Origin: an uncultured bacterium
GTDB taxonomy: Bacteria > Eisenbacteria > RBG-16-71-46 > CAIMUX01
Length of the DNA stretch: 8,940 nucleotides
Reading direction: 5' to 3'
Assembly (NCBI GenBank): GCA_946886185.1
Contig: CAMPIC010000081.1
Location: forward strand, 1-8,940
Shown piece after piece: positions 1 through 8,940 of the stretch; the stretch's first letter is position 1; each line of letters begins with the position of its first letter. The notes beneath the pieces are model-generated. The model was not told the DNA's origin and ran no database searches. It saw only the letters and a program-made list of their open reading frames with translations. The position numbers and the translations under genes are program-made.

Positions 1-237
1 GTTGTGGGTGCCGTTGTGAGTTCCGTTGCTCGCGCCGTTGATGCCGTTCCCGTTGCCATTCCCGTTGTCGTGCCCGCCCTGCTTATCGTCATGGCGGCCG
101 TTCTCGTTGCGCACGACGTTGCCGTTTTCGTGCGCGCCGTTTGCCGAGCCGTTCCGTAGGACGTTCCCGTTCTCGTAGGCGGCGCCGGTCACGCCGTTGC
201 GCATCACCGCGTCACTCTCGTTGGCACCGCCGTCCGG
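1..237 (-). repeat. Low-complexity Asn-Gly-His tract inside isocitrate lyase
   Basis: Residues 745-823 are made largely of Asn-Gly dipeptides (13 NG in about 75 residues) with scattered His, Glu, Arg and Val. It includes two similar blocks, ENGNVLRNG and [11 protein letters not shown], and a pure NGNGNGNG run. In ordinary isocitrate lyases the barrel motif (PIVADAEAG) follows about 20-25 residues after RADQI. Here 88 residues follow without reaching it, so this is an insertion at a surface point before the core barrel. On the plus strand it appears as recurrent GCCGTT/CCCGTT units. The tract continues beyond the left edge. Confidence 0.85.
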
Positions 238-2469
238 CATCTTGGCGAGGCGCTCCGCATGCTCGATCTGGTCGGCCCGCTGCAGCGCGGCGTTCAACCG
301 CTTGACCAGCTGCGGGACCGAGTTCGCCGGATAGAGTGACTGATCGGGATAGGTGTGGCCGGACACGTTCGCATCCGCCGCGACTTGCCAGCCGCTGCAG
401 TAGATCGCCTCCAGTCCTGCGCGCACCATCTGCACCGCCTGATTCCCGGAGAGCGCGCCGAGAGCATGCACGTAATCGCGGGAGGTCAAGAGATCCCACA
501 GCCGATTCGCTCCGATCCTCGCGAGCGTGTATTCGATGCGCACGGAGCCACGGAGCTTTTCCACGTCCTTCGCGGAGTAGGGGCGGACGACTCCGTTCCA
601 GCGATCTGCGGGCTTAGAAACCTGATGGGCGTCGTGCTGCGGGCGGATGGCCACCATGGGGGTCGATCCTCCTTCGTGAGATTTCTCGGCTGCGCCATCG
701 AGAGCGTTCGCCGCCGATGGATCTGGTCGGGACGCGGGACGGGGAACAGAAGCAACTCGCGTGCCTTTCGATAGCGCCGGATTCATTCGCACACTTGTCG
801 GGACACTCGGATCGGGATTCGCGGTCTGCGCGATCAAGCGCTGATATGCCTCAGCAGTGAGGAATTCGGCAGGCTCGGGCGCGGTCGCCAGGTCGGCGAA
901 GAGCCGCGCAGCATCCACGAAACCTCCCTCGAGAAAATGCTGGGCGCCGACTTCCCGGCGTATCCGCAGCAGCTCCTCGGCAAGAAGCACGCGCGCGCGG
1001 GCAGCAGTCACGATCGATCCGTCGGAAAGCGCGACCCGATGCTTCACCCACTGCCAGATCTGGATCCGCGAGATTTCCGCGGTGGCGGCGTCCTCCATCA
1101 ATCCGTACAAGGGAACGCATCCGACACCGCGGAGCCAGGCCGCCAGGTACTGGACGCCCACGCGCAGGTTGAGTCGAAGCGCTTCTTCCGTGCGGGCGCC
1201 GCGCGGAATCGCCAAGAGCTCGTCGCGTGTGACGGCGACGTCGTCGAGGAGGCGATGCCGTTGATGCGGCCCGATCATCTCCGCATGGAACGCGGACCGC
1301 ACCGTATCGATCAAAGCCGGGTGGGCCACCCAGGTGCCGTCGTGTCCGTCGCGCGCCTCGCGGCGTTTGTCTGCCTCGACGGCCGTCAATGCAGCAGCGT
1401 TGGCATCCGAATCGTTCTTGCTCGGAATGAACGCGGCCATCCCCCCGATCGCAGGCGCCCCCCGGCGATGACAAATCTGGATCGCGCGCCGCGCATATGC
1501 CCGCAGGAACGGCTGGTCCATGGTGACCAGGGCGCGATCGGGGAAGATGCGATCCGGATCGTCCTGGAGATTCTTGATGAAGGAGAAGATGTAGTCCCAC
1601 CGGCCGCAGTTGAGCCCCGCGGAATGCTCGCGCAGCTCATAGAGGATCTCCTCCATCTGGAAGGCAGCGGGCGCCGTCTCGATCAACACCGTCGCCCGAA
1701 TCGATCCGCGTGGAACGCCGAGAGCTTCCTGCGCGAAAAGGAAAACGTCGTTCCAGAAACGCGCCTCGTGGCGATGCTCGAGCTTGGGGAGATAGAAGTA
1801 CGGACCCGAACCGCGCCGGATCAGCTCCGCCGCGTTGTGGAAGAAGAAGAGTCCGAAGTCGAAGAGCGCAGCTGGATATGGGACGATTCGGTCCGGCCCG
1901 CCGTCGACCTCCGATCGGACCTCGAGGTGCGCTTCGTCGAGATGGAGCCCGCGAGGGCGGACCACCAAAGTCGCAGTCCGATCCGCGAGACGGTATGACT
2001 TGCCGGAATCGGGGTCGGTGAAGTCGATCTGACGGCGGACCGCGTCATATAGATGGGCCTGCCCCGAGATCATGTTGACCCACGTCGGGGAGGTCGCATC
2101 CTCGAAGTCGGCCATGAACACATCCGCTCCCGAGGACAGCCCGGTCACGATCCGCTTGCGCTCCACCGGGCCGGTCAGCTCCACGATCCGTTGGACGAGG
2201 TCGGGCGGGGCATCCGCGACACGCCACCTCGGATCGGCCACGGCGGGATCCGGAAGGGGGAAATCCAGGCTCGAGCCGCTGGCGTCCCGACGACGGGCCT
2301 GCCTGTCGGCGCGGACCGACAATAACGGATCGATAAATCTGGTTTCCAGCGACGTCAGAAACTCCAACGCCTCGGGTGTGAACAGCCATCCCTGAGCGGA
2401 ATGGGAGGCCGAGTCCACTCTGAAGTGAATCGTGCTGCTTCGCGATCCTTTTCCAGAAGCTGTTAACAT
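1..2469 (-). CDS. aceB-aceA: Malate synthase A - isocitrate lyase fusion, 3' end cut by window edge
   Basis: Bifunctional glyoxylate-shunt enzyme: the lyase splits isocitrate to succinate and glyoxylate, and the synthase condenses glyoxylate with acetyl-CoA to malate. I read the frame codon by codon: 823 codons without a stop. Malate synthase A occupies residues ~1-547. It shows [12 protein letters not shown], the RPRG arginines (171/173), Glu264 in LIETAPAAF, the family signature [16 protein letters not shown] (280-295, Mg-ligand Asp292) and the catalytic-base Asp460 in [13 protein letters not shown] linker follows (548-604). Isocitrate lyase begins at about 605 with [10 protein letters not shown] (623-632), [10 protein letters not shown] (692-701), [13 protein letters not shown] (707-719) and RADQI ending at 735. 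The KKCGH catalytic loop lies outside the window. The start at 2469 is the only ATG before the conserved N-terminus; its Shine-Dalgarno (AGGA, 4 nt spacing) is weak. The family assignment is certain. Whether the cell makes only the fusion is open, because an internal start is present. Confidence 0.95.
655..674 (-). promoter_or_regulatory. Internal ribosome binding site and ATG for the isocitrate lyase part
   Basis: On the minus strand AAGGAGG (674-668) is followed by 10 nt and an in-frame ATG (657-655, residue Met605). The lyase landmark Arg of RWNG then falls at residue 19 counted from this Met, the same offset I recall for E. coli AceA. This looks like the original aceA start site, and it is stronger than the site in front of aceB itself. 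Caveat: GGA GGA also encodes a Gly-Gly in the linker, so the match could be coincidental. Confidence 0.65.
658..828 (-). other. Interdomain linker joining malate synthase to isocitrate lyase
   Basis: Residues ~548-604 are rich in Pro, Ala, Ser and Thr and match neither enzyme. Malate synthase A proteins normally end shortly after the motif equivalent to [10 protein letters not shown], which here ends at residue 545. A hand count of third codon positions gives about 32 G/C of 59 (54 %), against about 26 of 30 (87 %) in a sampled stretch of the synthase domain. The stretch therefore looks like former intergenic DNA that is now read through, rather than long-selected coding sequence. Confidence 0.7.
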
Positions 2470-2870: not shown

Positions 2871-3066
2871 CATTCGCGACCCGGCTCCGGCACCCGGTCG
2901 AAGCAGGCGGCCGCGACAGACGCCCGATCGCCGGGCGCGTGATGGATCAGCACGCGAACGATGACGAAACGCGCGCGCCGCAGTATTCTGTGGGTCTTGT
3001 CCTGCGACGACTTCCCCCGCTACCTCGGTGACGAACCGGAATCGCCCGAGCCGCAGGAGTACGAAC

Positions 3067-3086
3067 AGAGGAGACGTTCCCAGATG
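3067..3086 (+). promoter_or_regulatory. Ribosome binding site deciding the Tricorn start at 3084
   Basis: AGAGGAGA (3067-3074) lies 9-10 nt before the ATG at 3084. The frame remains open upstream to another ATG at 2961, but that one lacks a good Shine-Dalgarno. The 41 extra residues it would add are charged, match no known Tricorn N-terminus and are not a signal peptide. Confidence 0.7.
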
Positions 3087-6000
3087 GCTTCCGATGCTGG
3101 CTACTATCGACATCCGACGATTCACGGCGACACCATCGTGTTCGTCAGCGAGGACGATCTCTGGTCGGTCCCGGCGAAAGGCGGAACCGCGCGCCGACTG
3201 ACTGCGAATCCGGGAATCATCTCGTTTCCGTCTTTTTCTCCGGACGGCACGCAGCTCGCGTTCACCGGTCGCGATGATGGACCGAACGAGGTCTATGTCA
3301 TGCCTTCGGACGGCGGCACTCCCGAGCGTCTCACCTGGTTCGGCTCCGTTACGCAAGTCGCGGGATGGCATCCGAACGGCAAATCCGTGTTGGCCCCGAG
3401 CGATTGGCGCCAGCCATTCCGGAAGACGCTTCATCTCCTTTCCATTCCGTTGGACGGCGGACAACCGACGCCGATCAAGGTCGGTCCGGCTCGTTCGATC
3501 TCCTACGATCCGAACGGTCCCGGAGTCGTGGTGGGACGCAACTCCGGTGATCCCTCTCGCTGGAAGCGCTATCGAGGCGGCACCGCCGGAACGCTGTGGG
3601 TCGATCGCAAAGGAAACGGCGAGTACCAGCAACTCATCGAGCTCCCGGGGAATCTGGCCGCTCCGATGTGGATCGAAGATCGGATCTACTTCCTCTCCGA
3701 TCACGAAGGTTATGGCAACTTGTACTCGGTGACCCCGACCGGACGAGCGCTTCGCCGGCACACCGATCACGACGACTACTACGTGCGGTTTCCTTCCACG
3801 GACGGCAAGAGCATCATCTATCACGCGGGCGCCGACATCTTCCGCTACGACGTCGCGAACGGTGGATCGCACAAGGTCCTGGTCGAGCTGAAAAGCACCC
3901 GCAGTCAGCGCAACCGGAAGTTCGTTCCGGGAAGCCGCCACCTCGAGTCGTTCGATCTGCATCCGCAAGGACATTCGCTGGCGCTCGTGAGCCGCGGCGG
4001 CCTCTTCACCATGGGTTTGTGGGAAGGAGCGGTGCGCCGTCATGGCGAGGTTTCGCGCGTGCGCTATCGTCTCGGCCGGTGGCTCGCGGATGGAAAGCGG
4101 CTGGTCGCGGTCCACGACGGAGCAGGCGACGAGAGTCTGGTCGTCTTCTCCCCCGAAGGGTCGGGAGAAGGAAAAGTGATCGCGGGAGACTTCGGTCGTC
4201 CGAGCGATCTGTTCGTGCAGCCGAGCGTTCCTGCCCCGAAAGACTCGACGAAAGGAACCGGCAAGTCGTCCAACCGGGCGGCGCGGGCATCCAAGGCGCG
4301 CGCCTCGAAAACCGGCGGCGCCGCGAAGTCCGGCGGGCAGCACGTGGTGCTGATCAATCAACGTCACGAGCTCATCCTCGTGAACGTCGACACGGGAAAG
4401 TCGCGCCTCATCGCGCACACCCGGCTGGGTAACGGCATCAACGGAGCCTGCTGGTCTCCGGATGGCCGTTGGATCGCGTACAGCATGCCGACGTCGAACC
4501 GCACGAGCAGCATCTTCCTCTACGAGATGGCGACCGGGACGTCGACGCAGATTACCCGCAGCGACTTCAACGACACCGATCCCTCCTTCGATCCCGGAGG
4601 CAAGTACCTCTACTTCATCTCGTGGCGCACCTACGATCCGATCTACGACAGCCATTATTTCGATCTCGGATTTCCCAAGGGCTCGCGCCCCTATCTGATC
4701 CCGCTCGCCGGGGACACCGTCTCTCCGTTTTCCGAGGCGACGCGTCCCTTGCGCGCTCCGTCGAGCCATCCGAATCAACAAAATGGAGCCGAGCGTCATC
4801 GCTCTCCCGAGATCGCCCGCGAGATCAAGATCGATCTCGAAGGGATCCAGGATCGGATCGTGGCGTTCCCGGTCGCGGAAGGACGATACGTCCGCATCGA
4901 AGGCGGGCTCGGCCGCGTGCTCTTCTCGAGCGTGCCGGTCGAAGGAAGCCTGGGCTCGGGCTGGTCGCAAGGAGAAAGCGCTCCCAAGGCGCGCCTCGAG
5001 GCATATGACTTCGAGAATCTTAAAGTCGAGAAGGTCTCCGATCAGATCACCTCGTTCTCACTTTCGCTCGACCGGCAGGTCCTCGCCATTCGCACGGGGA
5101 AGCGGCTGCGCGTGGTGAGCGCGTCGACGCGGGAGATTCCGTCGCGGGAAGGTGTGGGCCGCGAAAGCGGATGGATCGACGTCGACCGTGTCCGGGTCGC
5201 CGTCGTCCCGCGAGACGAGTGGAAGCAGATGTTCTCAGAAGCGTGGCGACTCCAGCGGGATCAGTTCTGGACCTCCGACATGTCCGGTATCGACTGGACG
5301 GACGTCAACGCGCGCTATCTTCCCCTGGTCGATCGCGTGGCGACTCGATCGGAGTTCTCCGATCTGATGTGGGAGATGCAAGGAGAGCTCGGCACCTCGC
5401 ATTGCTACGAGATGGGCGGCGACTATCTGCCGCAGCCAAATTGGTATCAAGGCTTCCTCGGCGCCGATCTGACCTACGACTCGCGCGCCCAGAGCTGGAA
5501 GATCGAGCGGATTCCGCGCGGCGACTCCTGGGATCCGAACAGCTCCTCGCCGCTCATGTCGCCGGGTGTCAACGTCAGGCCGGGAGATCGCATTCTCGCG
5601 ATCGGCGGCGAGCCGGTCGGTCCGGATGCCTCTCCGTATGAACGCCTCGTCCATCTCGCGGGCCACGAAGTCGAGTTGGAAGTGTCCAGCAACGGCACCG
5701 GTCCGCACGGGAAGAAGAATCCGGTTCAAGTCCGCCGGGTCGTGATCAAGACGCTGCGCGACGAGACCGCACTGCGCTATCGCGACTGGGTCGAGACCAA
5801 CCGTGAGCGCGTGCACGCGGAGACCAAGGACCGGGCCGGTTACGTCCACGTGCCGGACATGGGTCCGAACGGCTACTCGGAGTTCCATCGATATTTCAAG
5901 CTCGAAGCGCAGCGTGAAGCGCTCATCGTCGACGTGCGCTTCAACGGCGGCGGCCATGTGTCGCAAATCCTGCTGGAGAAGCTGCTCCGACGCAGGATCG

Positions 6001-6455
6001 GCTACGACGTCAATCGGTGGGGCGTGCCCGACTCGTATCCGCTCGATGCGCCGATGGGTCCGCTCGTCGCGCTGACGAACGAATATGCCGGATCGGACGG
6101 CGACATGTTCAGCCACGCCTTCAAGCTCACCAAGCTCGGTCCGCTCATCGGAAAGCGCACCTGGGGTGGCGTCGTGGGAATCTGGCCGCGCCACTCCCTG
6201 GTCGATGGCGCCATCACCACGCAGCCGGAGTTCGCGTTCTGGTTCGAGGATGTGGGTTGGGGGATCGAGAACTACGGAACCGATCCGGATATCGAAGTGG
6301 AGATCCGCCCGCAGGATTACGCGCAGGGTCGCGATCCGCAGCTCGATCGCGCGATCGGCGAGATCCTCAAGGCGCTGCGCAAGACGCCTCCGAAGCTGCC
6401 CAACTTCAAGGATCGCCCCAAGCTGCGTCCTGGTCGCCTGCCCAAGGCGCGCTGA
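3084..6455 (+). CDS. Tricorn protease homologue (S41 family), complete
   Basis: Large cytosolic serine protease that trims the 6-12-residue peptides released by proteasome-like proteases; in Thermoplasma it forms a hexamer. At 1123 residues it is close to the archaeal enzyme (about 1071). Order: six-bladed propeller (~1-310, starting YYRHPTIHGDTIVFVSEDDLW), seven-bladed propeller (~320-690), helical C1 (~708-790), PDZ-like segment (~800-885, containing PGDRILAIGGEPVG), and C2 catalytic domain (~890-1100, DVRFNGGG at 950-957). The catalytic set is present: Ser772-His773 (GTSHCYEMGG), nucleophile Ser1004 with Asp1005 (NEYAGSDGD) and Glu1062 (WGIENYGTDPD). Residues 386-419 form a Lys/Arg/Ser/Ala-rich loop (9 basic, 1 acidic) inserted in the second propeller. 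There is no signal peptide. The first copy of the downstream repeat begins at its stop codon. Divergent from aceB-aceA; none of the Tricorn-interacting factor genes is in the window. Confidence 0.97.
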   Translation: MASDAGYYRHPTIHGDTIVFVSEDDLWSVPAKGGTARRLTANPGIISFPSFSPDGTQLAFTGRDDGPNEVYVMPSDGGTPERLTWFGSVTQVAGWHPNGKSVLAPSDWRQPFRKTLHLLSIPLDGGQPTPIKVGPARSISYDPNGPGVVVGRNSGDPSRWKRYRGGTAGTLWVDRKGNGEYQQLIELPGNLAAPMWIEDRIYFLSDHEGYGNLYSVTPTGRALRRHTDHDDYYVRFPSTDGKSIIYHAGADIFRYDVANGGSHKVLVELKSTRSQRNRKFVPGSRHLESFDLHPQGHSLALVSRGGLFTMGLWEGAVRRHGEVSRVRYRLGRWLADGKRLVAVHDGAGDESLVVFSPEGSGEGKVIAGDFGRPSDLFVQPSVPAPKDSTKGTGKSSNRAARASKARASKTGGAAKSGGQHVVLINQRHELILVNVDTGKSRLIAHTRLGNGINGACWSPDGRWIAYSMPTSNRTSSIFLYEMATGTSTQITRSDFNDTDPSFDPGGKYLYFISWRTYDPIYDSHYFDLGFPKGSRPYLIPLAGDTVSPFSEATRPLRAPSSHPNQQNGAERHRSPEIAREIKIDLEGIQDRIVAFPVAEGRYVRIEGGLGRVLFSSVPVEGSLGSGWSQGESAPKARLEAYDFENLKVEKVSDQITSFSLSLDRQVLAIRTGKRLRVVSASTREIPSREGVGRESGWIDVDRVRVAVVPRDEWKQMFSEAWRLQRDQFWTSDMSGIDWTDVNARYLPLVDRVATRSEFSDLMWEMQGELGTSHCYEMGGDYLPQPNWYQGFLGADLTYDSRAQSWKIERIPRGDSWDPNSSSPLMSPGVNVRPGDRILAIGGEPVGPDASPYERLVHLAGHEVELEVSSNGTGPHGKKNPVQVRRVVIKTLRDETALRYRDWVETNRERVHAETKDRAGYVHVPDMGPNGYSEFHRYFKLEAQREALIVDVRFNGGGHVSQILLEKLLRRRIGYDVNRWGVPDSYPLDAPMGPLVALTNEYAGSDGDMFSHAFKLTKLGPLIGKRTWGGVVGIWPRHSLVDGAITTQPEFAFWFEDVGWGIENYGTDPDIEVEIRPQDYAQGRDPQLDRAIGEILKALRKTPPKLPNFKDRPKLRPGRLPKAR

Positions 6456-6470
6456 TCGGAGCTCGGTAAT

Positions 6471-6506
6471 GCAGGCGCCTCGGATCTCACGATCCGGATC
6501 GTCTGC
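6471..6506 (+). other. Two-storey hairpin, copy 1
   Basis: Outer stem GCAGGCG (6471-6477) with CGTCTGC (6500-6506), 7 bp including one G-U; a 3x3 internal loop (cct/gat); inner stem CGGATC (6481-6486) with GATCCG (6491-6496), 6 bp; tetraloop TCAC. A flanking CTCG/CGAG pair could extend it. There is no following U-run, so it is not a classical intrinsic terminator. It could be an mRNA 3'-end stabiliser, a REP-like element or a site for an RNA-binding protein. Confidence 0.7.
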
Positions 6507-6536
6507 TCGAGGCGCGCTGATCGGGAACTCGGTGAT

Positions 6537-6572
6537 GCAGGCGGTCCGGATCTCACGATCCGCGACGCCTGC
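6537..6572 (+). other. Two-storey hairpin, copy 2
   Basis: Same architecture as copy 1: outer stem GCAGGCG (6537-6543) with CGCCTGC (6566-6572), now 7 perfect Watson-Crick pairs; 3x3 internal loop with a different sequence (gtc/cga); inner stem CGGATC (6547-6552) with GATCCG (6557-6562); identical TCAC loop. The stems and loop are conserved while the internal-loop bases differ, which points to conservation of the fold. Confidence 0.7.
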
Positions 6573-6603
6573 TCGAGCGCGCTGACCCGGACGCAGCGGA
6601 TGT

Positions 6604-6618
6604 AGGAGTCTGGCATTG
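6604..6618 (+). promoter_or_regulatory. Ribosome binding site for a TTG start
   Basis: AGGAG (6604-6608) with a 7-nt spacer precedes TTG at 6616. No ATG or GTG in this frame gives a better start before the first hydrophobic segments. The AGGAG falls in the degenerate third repeat unit, where the other units carry the hairpin arm GCAGGCG. Confidence 0.6.
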
Positions 6619-8940
6619 ATCGAATCGCCGGCCGAGCGCGCGCGCTCCGAGGAGGTAGCGCTCCTCGCCGCGACGCTGGTGGCCGCAGGGATGATCGCGC
6701 AGCAAGTCGCGAGCAAGACCGCGCGCGACGCCCTCTTCCTCGCCACCTTCCCGGTCGAACGACTGCCCGACATCGTGTTGGCGTCGGCGGCGCTTTCGAT
6801 CGTCCTGATCGTCCCGATGACGCGCCTTCTGGTGCGGATCGGACCGATGAGGTTGGTGCAGGTCGCCTGCTTCTCCAGCGCTCTCCTGCTGCTGCTCGAG
6901 TGGTGGCTCTGCCTGGTCTCTCCGCGCACGGGGACGTTGCTCCTCTACCTCCACGTCGCCGCGCTCGGCCCGGCGATCGTTTCGGGATTCTGGTCGCTCA
7001 TCACCGAGCGATTCGATCCCCGCACCGCGCGGCGGCGAATGAGCCGCCTGGTCGCCGGCTCGACGTTGGGTGGTCTGTTGGGTGGGCTGCTGGCGGAACG
7101 GGTCGGCTCCTCCTTCGGAGCGGTGAGCATTCTCCCCATGCTGGCGGCGATCCACTTGATCTGCGGAATCGGGGTGTCACGTTCGCTCGTGCAGCAAAGG
7201 ACGCCTCCCCAGCGCGAGGGGACCGGTCAGTCCGGCCGTGATGCTCGCGCCGCGGGTGGTACTGCGGTCCCTGATGGCGGTGCCACCGATTCGACCGCGC
7301 GCCATGGGCTCGGCACTCTCCTCCGTCCCGGGTACCTTCGCCACCTCGCGATCCTGGTGCTGCTCGGCGCCCTCGCCGCCGGCTTGATCGACTATGCGCT
7401 CAAGATGCGCGCTTCCGAGGCGTACATGGGCCAGGAGGATCCGCTGGTCCGATTCTTCGCGATCTTCTATTCGGCGGCCGCGTTGCTCGCGCTTCTCGTA
7501 CAGACCGTGGTGACTCCATGGATGATGGAACGCTGGGGGCCGAGCCGGACCGCGGGAATGCTTCCCGGATCGGTCGGGTTGGGTTCACTCGTCGCTCTCT
7601 TCGTTCCCGTCCTCCCCATGGCCACCTTGGTCCGCATGACCGAGTCCGTCTTTCGCAACTCCGTCTATCGATCCGGCTATGAGTTGCTGTATGCGCCCGT
7701 CGATTCGGCGGAGAAGCGGCGCAGCAAAGCGTGGATCGACATCGGATGCGACCGCATGGGCGATGGACTCGGCGCGATTGTGGTCAAAGGACTGAACCTG
7801 CTTCCCGCGCAACTTTCGATCGTCGGGCTGTTCGGATTGGCCGTGATCGCGAGCGCGCTGTCTCTGCTCGCCGTTTCGAGGCTCTCGCGAGGATACGTGC
7901 GCACGTTGCAGAAGAGCCTGCTGCAGCGAGCCGAAGCGCTCGATTTGACCCGGTCCACGGAACATCTCTCCCGGTCCACACTCCTGCAAACATTCGCCGC
8001 ATTCGACCGGCGCGAGCTTCTGGCGCAGATCGACCGAAAGGAGCTTCTTGCGCGGGCCAACCAGAATGCGCCTCTCGGAAATCCTTCTACGCCGCCGGCC
8101 GCGGGCGATCCGAGCGACCGGATTTCCGCTCAGGTCCTGGCTCTTCGCTCCGGAAACATCGAGGCCGTGCGCGCCGTGCTCTCCGACGACCCGGTCGATC
8201 CATCGCTCGCCGTTCATCTCATTCCGCTTCTCGCATGGGATGATGTCAGCGACGAGGTGATCCGCGCGCTGCGCGTCATGGCACCGCGCATTCTGGACGC
8301 TCTGATCGAGGCTCTGCTCGACCCCTCGCGAGAGTTCGCGGTGCGGCGGCGTGTTCCCCGAGTGATCGCGGTGGCGGGCAGCGCTCGTGCGGTCGAAGGG
8401 TTGTGCGGAGGACTCGCCGACAAGCGCTTCGAGGTGCGATTCCAATGCGGCCGCGCCCTCGCGATCATCCATCGACGTCACCCGGAAGTCCCCGTCGATC
8501 GCTCCGCCATCCTCGCGGCGGTGCTCCGTGAGCTCGAGGTAGACCGTCCCATCTGGGAAAGCCGCCGGCTGCTCGATCAGCGATTCGAGGAAGCCGACGA
8601 CTCCGACACCTCGGTCGCGGACCGGTTGCTGCGCGAACGGTCGAACAGCAGCTTGGAGCATGTCTTCACGCTGCTCTCTCTGGTGCTCCCCGCCCAACCG
8701 CTCCGCGTCGCGTTTCGCGGCCTGCACACCGGGGACCCGACCTTGCGCGGCACCGCCCTCGAGTATCTGGAGAGCGTGCTCCCTCCTGAAGTGCGCGAGA
8801 AGTTGTGGCCGTTCCTGGAGATCGATCGGATGCGCAACGCTCCGAGCCGACGATCGTCACAAGAGGTGTTGGACCAGCTGATGCGCTCGCATGATTCGAT
8901 CTCCCTCGACTTGAAGCGGCTCGACCGGAACGGCGGGGAC
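6616..8940 (+). CDS. NTT/ATP-ADP translocase-like membrane protein with HEAT-like tail, 3' end cut
   Basis: 775 codons without a stop, running off the right edge. Residues ~13-425 contain about 12 hydrophobic segments, including segments rich in ALSIVLIV, LLLLLEWW and LLGALAAGL. The segment RRRMSRLVAGSTLGGLLGG and the motif KRRSKAWIDIGCDRMGDGLG (367-385) resemble conserved loops of bacterial nucleotide-transporter (NTT, Npt1/Npt2) homologues. A hydrophilic Gly/Ala/Arg-rich loop (189-240) splits the membrane part into two six-segment halves. Residues ~430-500 are charged and probably helical. From ~500 onward there are HEAT-like helical pairs (FEVRFQCGRALAII is typical), then the LRGTALEYLESVLPPEVREK region. 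Substrate is unknown: homologues in free-living bacteria need not exchange ATP, and an MFS-like carrier of other specificity or a non-transporting scaffold is possible. It lies 160 bp after the Tricorn gene in the same direction. By comparison with relatives I remember, the stop is probably not far outside the window. Confidence 0.82.
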   Translation, partial: MIESPAERARSEEVALLAATLVAAGMIAQQVASKTARDALFLATFPVERLPDIVLASAALSIVLIVPMTRLLVRIGPMRLVQVACFSSALLLLLEWWLCLVSPRTGTLLLYLHVAALGPAIVSGFWSLITERFDPRTARRRMSRLVAGSTLGGLLGGLLAERVGSSFGAVSILPMLAAIHLICGIGVSRSLVQQRTPPQREGTGQSGRDARAAGGTAVPDGGATDSTARHGLGTLLRPGYLRHLAILVLLGALAAGLIDYALKMRASEAYMGQEDPLVRFFAIFYSAAALLALLVQTVVTPWMMERWGPSRTAGMLPGSVGLGSLVALFVPVLPMATLVRMTESVFRNSVYRSGYELLYAPVDSAEKRRSKAWIDIGCDRMGDGLGAIVVKGLNLLPAQLSIVGLFGLAVIASALSLLAVSRLSRGYVRTLQKSLLQRAEALDLTRSTEHLSRSTLLQTFAAFDRRELLAQIDRKELLARANQNAPLGNPSTPPAAGDPSDRISAQVLALRSGNIEAVRAVLSDDPVDPSLAVHLIPLLAWDDVSDEVIRALRVMAPRILDALIEALLDPSREFAVRRRVPRVIAVAGSARAVEGLCGGLADKRFEVRFQCGRALAIIHRRHPEVPVDRSAILAAVLRELEVDRPIWESRRLLDQRFEEADDSDTSVADRLLRERSNSSLEHVFTLLSLVLPAQPLRVAFRGLHTGDPTLRGTALEYLESVLPPEVREKLWPFLEIDRMRNAPSRRSSQEVLDQLMRSHDSISLDLKRLDRNGGD

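Follow-up and report, generated by a model that had tools for sequence, protein, structure and literature searches.

Fusions of the two glyoxylate cycle enzymes, malate synthase and isocitrate lyase, have been recognized for some time. The available text of Kondrashov et al. (2006; PMC1630690) counts at least three independent fusions, in nematodes, in Euglena and in the bacterium Anaeromyxobacter dehalogenans, and gives the order of the enzymes as synthase-first in Euglena and lyase-first in nematodes, in agreement with what a sequence-only reading of the present locus had stated. The same text calls the Euglena lineage too fast-evolving to place, and describes a fusion made inside a bacterium, before transfer to eukaryotes, as conceivable. 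No experimental study of a bacterial fusion of this kind was found among the titles and abstracts listed by the literature searches, which lay mostly outside subscription journals.

The gene described here comes from Candidatus Eisenbacteria and lies in a stretch of DNA of 8,940 nucleotides that was analysed as a whole (the window). By published order, the Euglena bifunctional glyoxylate cycle enzyme is synthase-first like the window gene, but eukaryotic, whereas the nematode bifunctional protein, by its published description, contains the same two enzymes with the lyase first (PMC1630690). The Anaeromyxobacter fusions are, like the window gene, bacterial and join the same two enzymes in one frame. 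That of A. oryzae (locus L007, protein P0179) is also synthase-first, but its linker is shorter and lacks a methionine and, unlike the full-length counterpart of the window gene (protein P0001, see below), it carries an extra C-terminal hemerythrin domain (PF01814); P0001 gave no match to PF01814 and ends with the lyase. On both trees described below the Anaeromyxobacter fusions are far from the window's clade.

When P0001 was used as the query against candidates whose length was 0.55 to 1.75 times its own, at least 7,990 were scored and at least 615 matched, and all of the best 120 matches, P0001 included, are synthase-first fusions holding both enzymes. The named sources of these 120 belong to the Myxococcota, chiefly to Anaeromyxobacter and its family, with one from the Planctomycetota. 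The novelty that the sequence-only reading had attached to a synthase-first fusion in a prokaryote is thus lost, and the view that the window holds the first prokaryotic fusion was rejected, since the A. dehalogenans protein has been in print since 2006 (in the available text of PMC1630690) and the databases contain many others.

The fused frame and its full-length counterpart

On the minus strand of the window a frame without a stop extends from 2601 to the window edge at position 1 (Table 1), and an ATG at 2469 opens the reading of a complete malate synthase A. The synthase matches TIGR01344 with 692.6 bits (cut-off 594.5) over model positions 2-510 of 511, matches both PF01274 and PF20659, and can be aligned across nearly its full length to the solved enzymes 3cux and 3cuz; its 11-letter end motif terminates at 832. 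The Arg of RPRG, the Glu of IET and the Asp residues of GRWDY and MEDA, which we take to be the catalytic residues of malate synthase, are all present in these alignments, and R171, E264, D292 and D460 are invariant across 40 alignment rows. Most of the related synthases are listed with a small N-terminal domain, PF20656, which gave no match in the window protein (region 2250-2469) or in P0001. In the frame of the synthase, about 120 residues at the start of an isocitrate lyase are matched by NF011645 and PF00463, the partial lyase alone scoring 198.5 with the former.

The remainder of the lyase, beyond the window, is known from P0001 only, a protein of 1139 aa encoded on a 10,089-base JGI contig that was found by protein search and represents a 90% identity cluster with 6 member sequences. 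P0001 differs from the window at 2 of 823 residues, 789 and 794, both within a low-complexity stretch. Its lyase scores 738.6 bits with NF011645 against a cut-off of 562, and since this completed lyase includes an aligned KKCGHLGGK loop and an ordinary C-terminus, both domains look whole. The sequence-only reading had placed the synthase first in one frame, with its catalytic motifs, and had expected an intact lyase with the KKCGH loop to the left of the window; both claims are borne out, the latter in P0001. The entire junction is identical in the window and P0001, which may derive from a common sample, and because these two sequences are non-identical and agree over the junction, an assembly artefact was set aside as the main reading. 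We conclude that the synthase-lyase fusion in the window is real. With both enzymes in one frame, synthase first, and complete in P0001, the product is predicted to be a single polypeptide with both activities.

Table 1. Features of the window; positions are those of the 8,940-nucleotide stretch
Feature	Position	Strand	Basis or remark
Malate synthase A domain, complete (residues 1-546)	832..2469	-	TIGR01344, PF01274, PF20659, 3cux/3cuz alignment
Stop-free linker, 58 codons, predicted disordered	658..831	-	open frame; P0001 pLDDT < 50
Shine-Dalgarno-like AAGGAGG, 10 bases upstream of lyase ATG, conserved in L001	668..674	-	sequence scan
ATG within the frame, probably initiating a separate isocitrate lyase of 535 aa (length from P0001)	655..657	-	
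Isocitrate lyase, N-terminal part, cut at window end	1..657	-	NF011645, residues 663-784 of ORF
Asn/Gly/His-rich low-complexity insert in lyase, start approximate	1..234	-	pLDDT < 50, P0001 residues 747-854
Tricorn-type protease (PD40 propeller, Tricorn_C1, PDZ, S41)	2961-6455		divergent from fusion gene
Tandem repeat, 66-base unit, 2.3 copies	6434-6585		at protease gene end, before next gene
MFS or ATP/ADP-translocase-like transporter, cut by window end	6616-8940		weak HEAT-repeat match further along the frame

An AlphaFold2 model of P0001, built on a 40-row alignment, has a mean pLDDT of 73.9 and a pTM of 0.56, with a confident synthase and a lyase of mixed confidence. The pLDDT is below 50 at residues 552-619 (the linker), in the lyase insert and in shorter stretches that include the end of the protein, 1106-1139. 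Relative to 6lrp the insert adds about 111 aa. Inserts of varying length, mostly rich in Asn and Gly (and His), occupy one fixed site of isocitrate lyase. They amount to 10 to 48 extra residues in all 12 measurable phylum loci with the window's synthase type (among L087-L098), and occur as well in P0001 (110 extra residues), P0121 (64), P0122 (22) and three loci of Chloroflexi/Anaerolineae (L024, L058 and L079). More than 8 extra lyase residues occur in 17 of 96 loci, a count that includes L073, in which the insert is not Asn/Gly-rich, and L111, which has a different lyase type; none of the phylum loci whose synthase is of another type (L099-L107, L109 and L110) is among them.

Joined and separate genes among the relatives

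The best 80 of the 573 loci returned by the genome scan were analysed. In 66 of the 80 a lyase follows the synthase on the same strand; a stop separates the two in 59, six are joined outright and one, L001, is joined except for one TAA. The six outright fusions are those of Anaeromyxobacter oryzae (L007), Oligoflexia (L008), an uncultured bacterium (L022), Melainabacteria (L026), Obscuribacterales (L030) and a sequence titled Euryarchaeota (L076). Of the others, eight lack a lyase in the stretch covered, one carries its lyase on the opposite strand and five are lyase-first. These lyase-first tandems (L040, L055, L071, L075 and L080) were considered as candidates for a fusion in the nematode order and rejected, as all five have a stop after the lyase. 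The fusion of L076, assigned to a Euryarchaeota archaeon by its title, has a very short linker and a frame of 940 aa.

Within the phylum Candidatus Eisenbacteria, a match was found in 27 of the 47 genomes searched, and 13 genomes carry the window's synthase type beside a lyase. In 11 of these there is a stop between the genes, although for one of the 11 (G040) the match to the synthase stops short, at query residue 464, which leaves the end of that synthase doubtful. The other two are G001, the genome of L001, and G005, in which synthase and lyase are joined without a stop in an open frame of 1068 aa.

On a tree built from synthase and lyase together (41 rows, hand-picked from 212 synthase pieces), P0001, L081/G001 (L081 and L001 are the same gene), L088/G005 and P0121 form a clade with support of 99/91 among operon relatives, and all four members are joined synthase-lyase frames, L081 except for its one TAA. 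P0122, a further fusion in the phylum's part of this tree, is sister to the operon of G029. A synthase-only tree (78 rows, hand-picked from the same 212 pieces) groups P0001 with L081 at 100 and leaves the places of G005 and P0121 unresolved, these two being united with the window's clade only by the synthase plus lyase tree. G005 (L088) and P0121 share with the window their clade, the order of the enzymes and the Asn/Gly-rich lyase insert, and the two-domain architecture that the sequence-only reading had proposed to look for in related genomes is present there.

The starred branches require a minimum of 7 changes of the 'fused' label on the 41-row tree and of 5 on the 78-row, synthase-only tree, changes that may be gains or losses. 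The label is hardly clustered on the former (11 changes against a shuffled mean of 12.5, with 110 of 500 shuffles as low) and clustered on the latter (14 changes against 24.5, with 0 of 500 shuffles as low). These trees make it unlikely that all bacterial fusions go back to one event, and the synthase-first fusions of bacteria probably evolved from aceB-aceA operons on more than one occasion.

Among the best 80 loci, the nearest relative of the window gene is L001, from Candidatus Eisenbacteria HKST-UBA01, with a synthase 69% identical and a lyase start 89% identical. Its TAA (3741-3743) is the codon preceding the FLT motif and is followed in frame by FLTTAAYPLLV and then by 58 open linker codons; by its title the contig has a coverage of cov_2.05. 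The sequence-only reading had pointed to residues 545-605 as the interval in which an in-frame stop in a close relative would speak against the fusion. The TAA lies outside it, at the equivalent of window residue 535, and the L001 linker is open. It could be argued that this TAA betrays two genes that are separate in most of the population, with the window and P0001 representing either a recent stop-loss or a joint assembly error, and such a view is in keeping with the stops in 59 of the 80 loci and with a window linker that has no coding signature (see below). However, the window and P0001 differ elsewhere while agreeing over the junction, the motif that follows the L001 TAA is still conserved and the contig is at cov_2.05, and no stop interrupts the joined frames of G005 and P0121, members of the window's clade. 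Separate genes are thus quite improbable. The TAA itself stems either from an error in sequencing or from a recent break and, because L001 sits in a clade of joined genes, a joined ancestor of L001 is favoured.

In L001 a gene for a short-chain fatty acyl-CoA regulator (PF09856; 521-1954, minus strand), presumably RamB-like, lies between a tricorn-like gene and the synthase, and a protein with the same N-terminus as the tricorn-type protease of the window starts near the L001 synthase. The window has no room for the regulator at that place, with the synthase starting at 2469 and the protease at 2961.

The linker and the probable internal lyase start

The linker comprises 174 bases both in the window and in L001. 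Over its first 156 bases the two are 34.6% identical when ungapped, and with gaps allowed the number of identities, 86, was no better than shuffles reach (mean 80.9, maximum 95). Of the final 18 bases, 17 are identical, including the AAGGAGG ahead of the ATG; this conservation rests on two sequences, the window and L001, between which the linker is otherwise saturated. Differences between them are distributed over the three codon positions as 37/34/31 in the linker and as 13/3/44 in 110 lyase codons, and G+C by codon position is 0.69/0.66/0.52 in the window linker and 0.69/0.47/0.77 in the window synthase. As the coding signature is absent by both measures, there is no sign of selection on the window linker as protein. 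When the linkers are shuffled, the chance of obtaining one without a stop is 0.21 (window) or 0.35 (L001), and thus the open linker is by itself weak evidence. The window linker thus resembles a one-time spacer whose frame has simply stayed open. The linker of G005 is different, with Gln-Pro repeats and a G+C of 0.70/0.47/0.70 that looks coding.

These features bear on the proposal, made in the sequence-only reading, that the fusion channels glyoxylate from the lyase to the synthase. That joined genes recur in many parts of the trees suggests that joining brings some benefit. However, the linker is predicted to be disordered, so that the model offers no fixed arrangement of the active sites, and among the best 120 fusions linkers vary from 11 to 73 residues and in sequence as well. 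Channelling is therefore without support and, in our view, highly improbable.

At least five Shine-Dalgarno bases are present at the lyase start in 48 of 80 operon loci and in two of the nine joined-frame loci, namely the window and L081, with 7 bases each. The other joined-frame loci have 0 (L007, L008, L026 and L076) or 4 (L022, L030 and L088), and the linkers of L007 and L008 contain no Met. L088, from G005, is the only other clade member with DNA compared, and the site before its internal Met is weak. The Shine-Dalgarno scan assigns the site in the window to a GTG one codon downstream of the ATG, at a spacing of 13. A search of 46 phylum genomes for the exact 21-base string that spans the Shine-Dalgarno sequence and the ATG gave a single occurrence, at this gene in G001. 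The RNA of this region shows no exceptional folding, either in the window (z +1.66, 193 of 200 shuffles at least as well folded) or in L001 (z -0.17, 88 of 200).

A strong start signal for a separate lyase, surviving inside a fusion, is the one unusual and new detail of this locus. The simplest reading of the conserved site is that the lyase is probably also started on its own. One frame might then give rise to a bifunctional synthase-lyase and, from the conserved internal ribosome-binding site, to a free lyase, leaving the second enzyme under independent control, a proposal that we regard as tentative and slightly short of an even chance. It could be argued instead that the gene is a plain obligate fusion that makes the bifunctional protein only, with AAGGAGG as an unused relic. 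Indeed, bifunctional protein only is the likely product of Anaeromyxobacter-type fusions, and L007, L008, L026 and L076 have no lyase start with even 4 Shine-Dalgarno bases, L007 and L008 lacking a Met in the linker altogether. An unused relic, however, would be expected to drift, whereas in the window and L001 the lyase-start site is the conserved stretch of the linker, and an obligate fusion is thus unlikely here. The fixed 1:1 stoichiometry that the sequence-only reading had offered as a consequence of fusion is likewise doubtful, because the strong ribosome-binding site and ATG directly before the lyase are the part of the linker that is conserved between the window and L001.

Origin of the fusion and its meaning

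We propose, with a probability of roughly 60%, that the window contains a fused aceB-aceA gene of Candidatus Eisenbacteria that arose from an operon by stop-loss and from which both the fusion and a free lyase are made. An ancestral tandem synthase-lyase operon, as in most relatives, would have lost the stop of the synthase, so that the spacer turned into a disordered linker. As the frame is open, every ribosome that finishes the synthase must continue into the lyase, giving a bifunctional protein of about 1139 aa. What appears to be the old lyase start, a strong Shine-Dalgarno sequence with its ATG, would have been retained and, as it is still present and conserved, ribosomes probably also initiate there to make a free lyase of 535 aa. 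The product would serve the glyoxylate shunt, in which, as established for these families, isocitrate is converted to succinate and glyoxylate, and glyoxylate and acetyl-CoA to malate. Lyases of this family are tetramers, and assemblies would therefore mix tethered and free subunits.

If the dual output is true, selection would act on the nucleotides of the start site and not on the amino acids of the linker. With this locus, the known bacterial fusions of the glyoxylate cycle come to include a lineage of Candidatus Eisenbacteria. The phylum appears to hold several stages, the operon, the joined frame with the lyase start kept and the joined frame with a repeat linker, and the transition from an operon to a fused enzyme can therefore be tested. 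The locus is also relevant to the suggestion, in the available text of the 2006 study, that the fusion could conceivably have taken place in a bacterium and been transferred to eukaryotes afterwards (PMC1630690).
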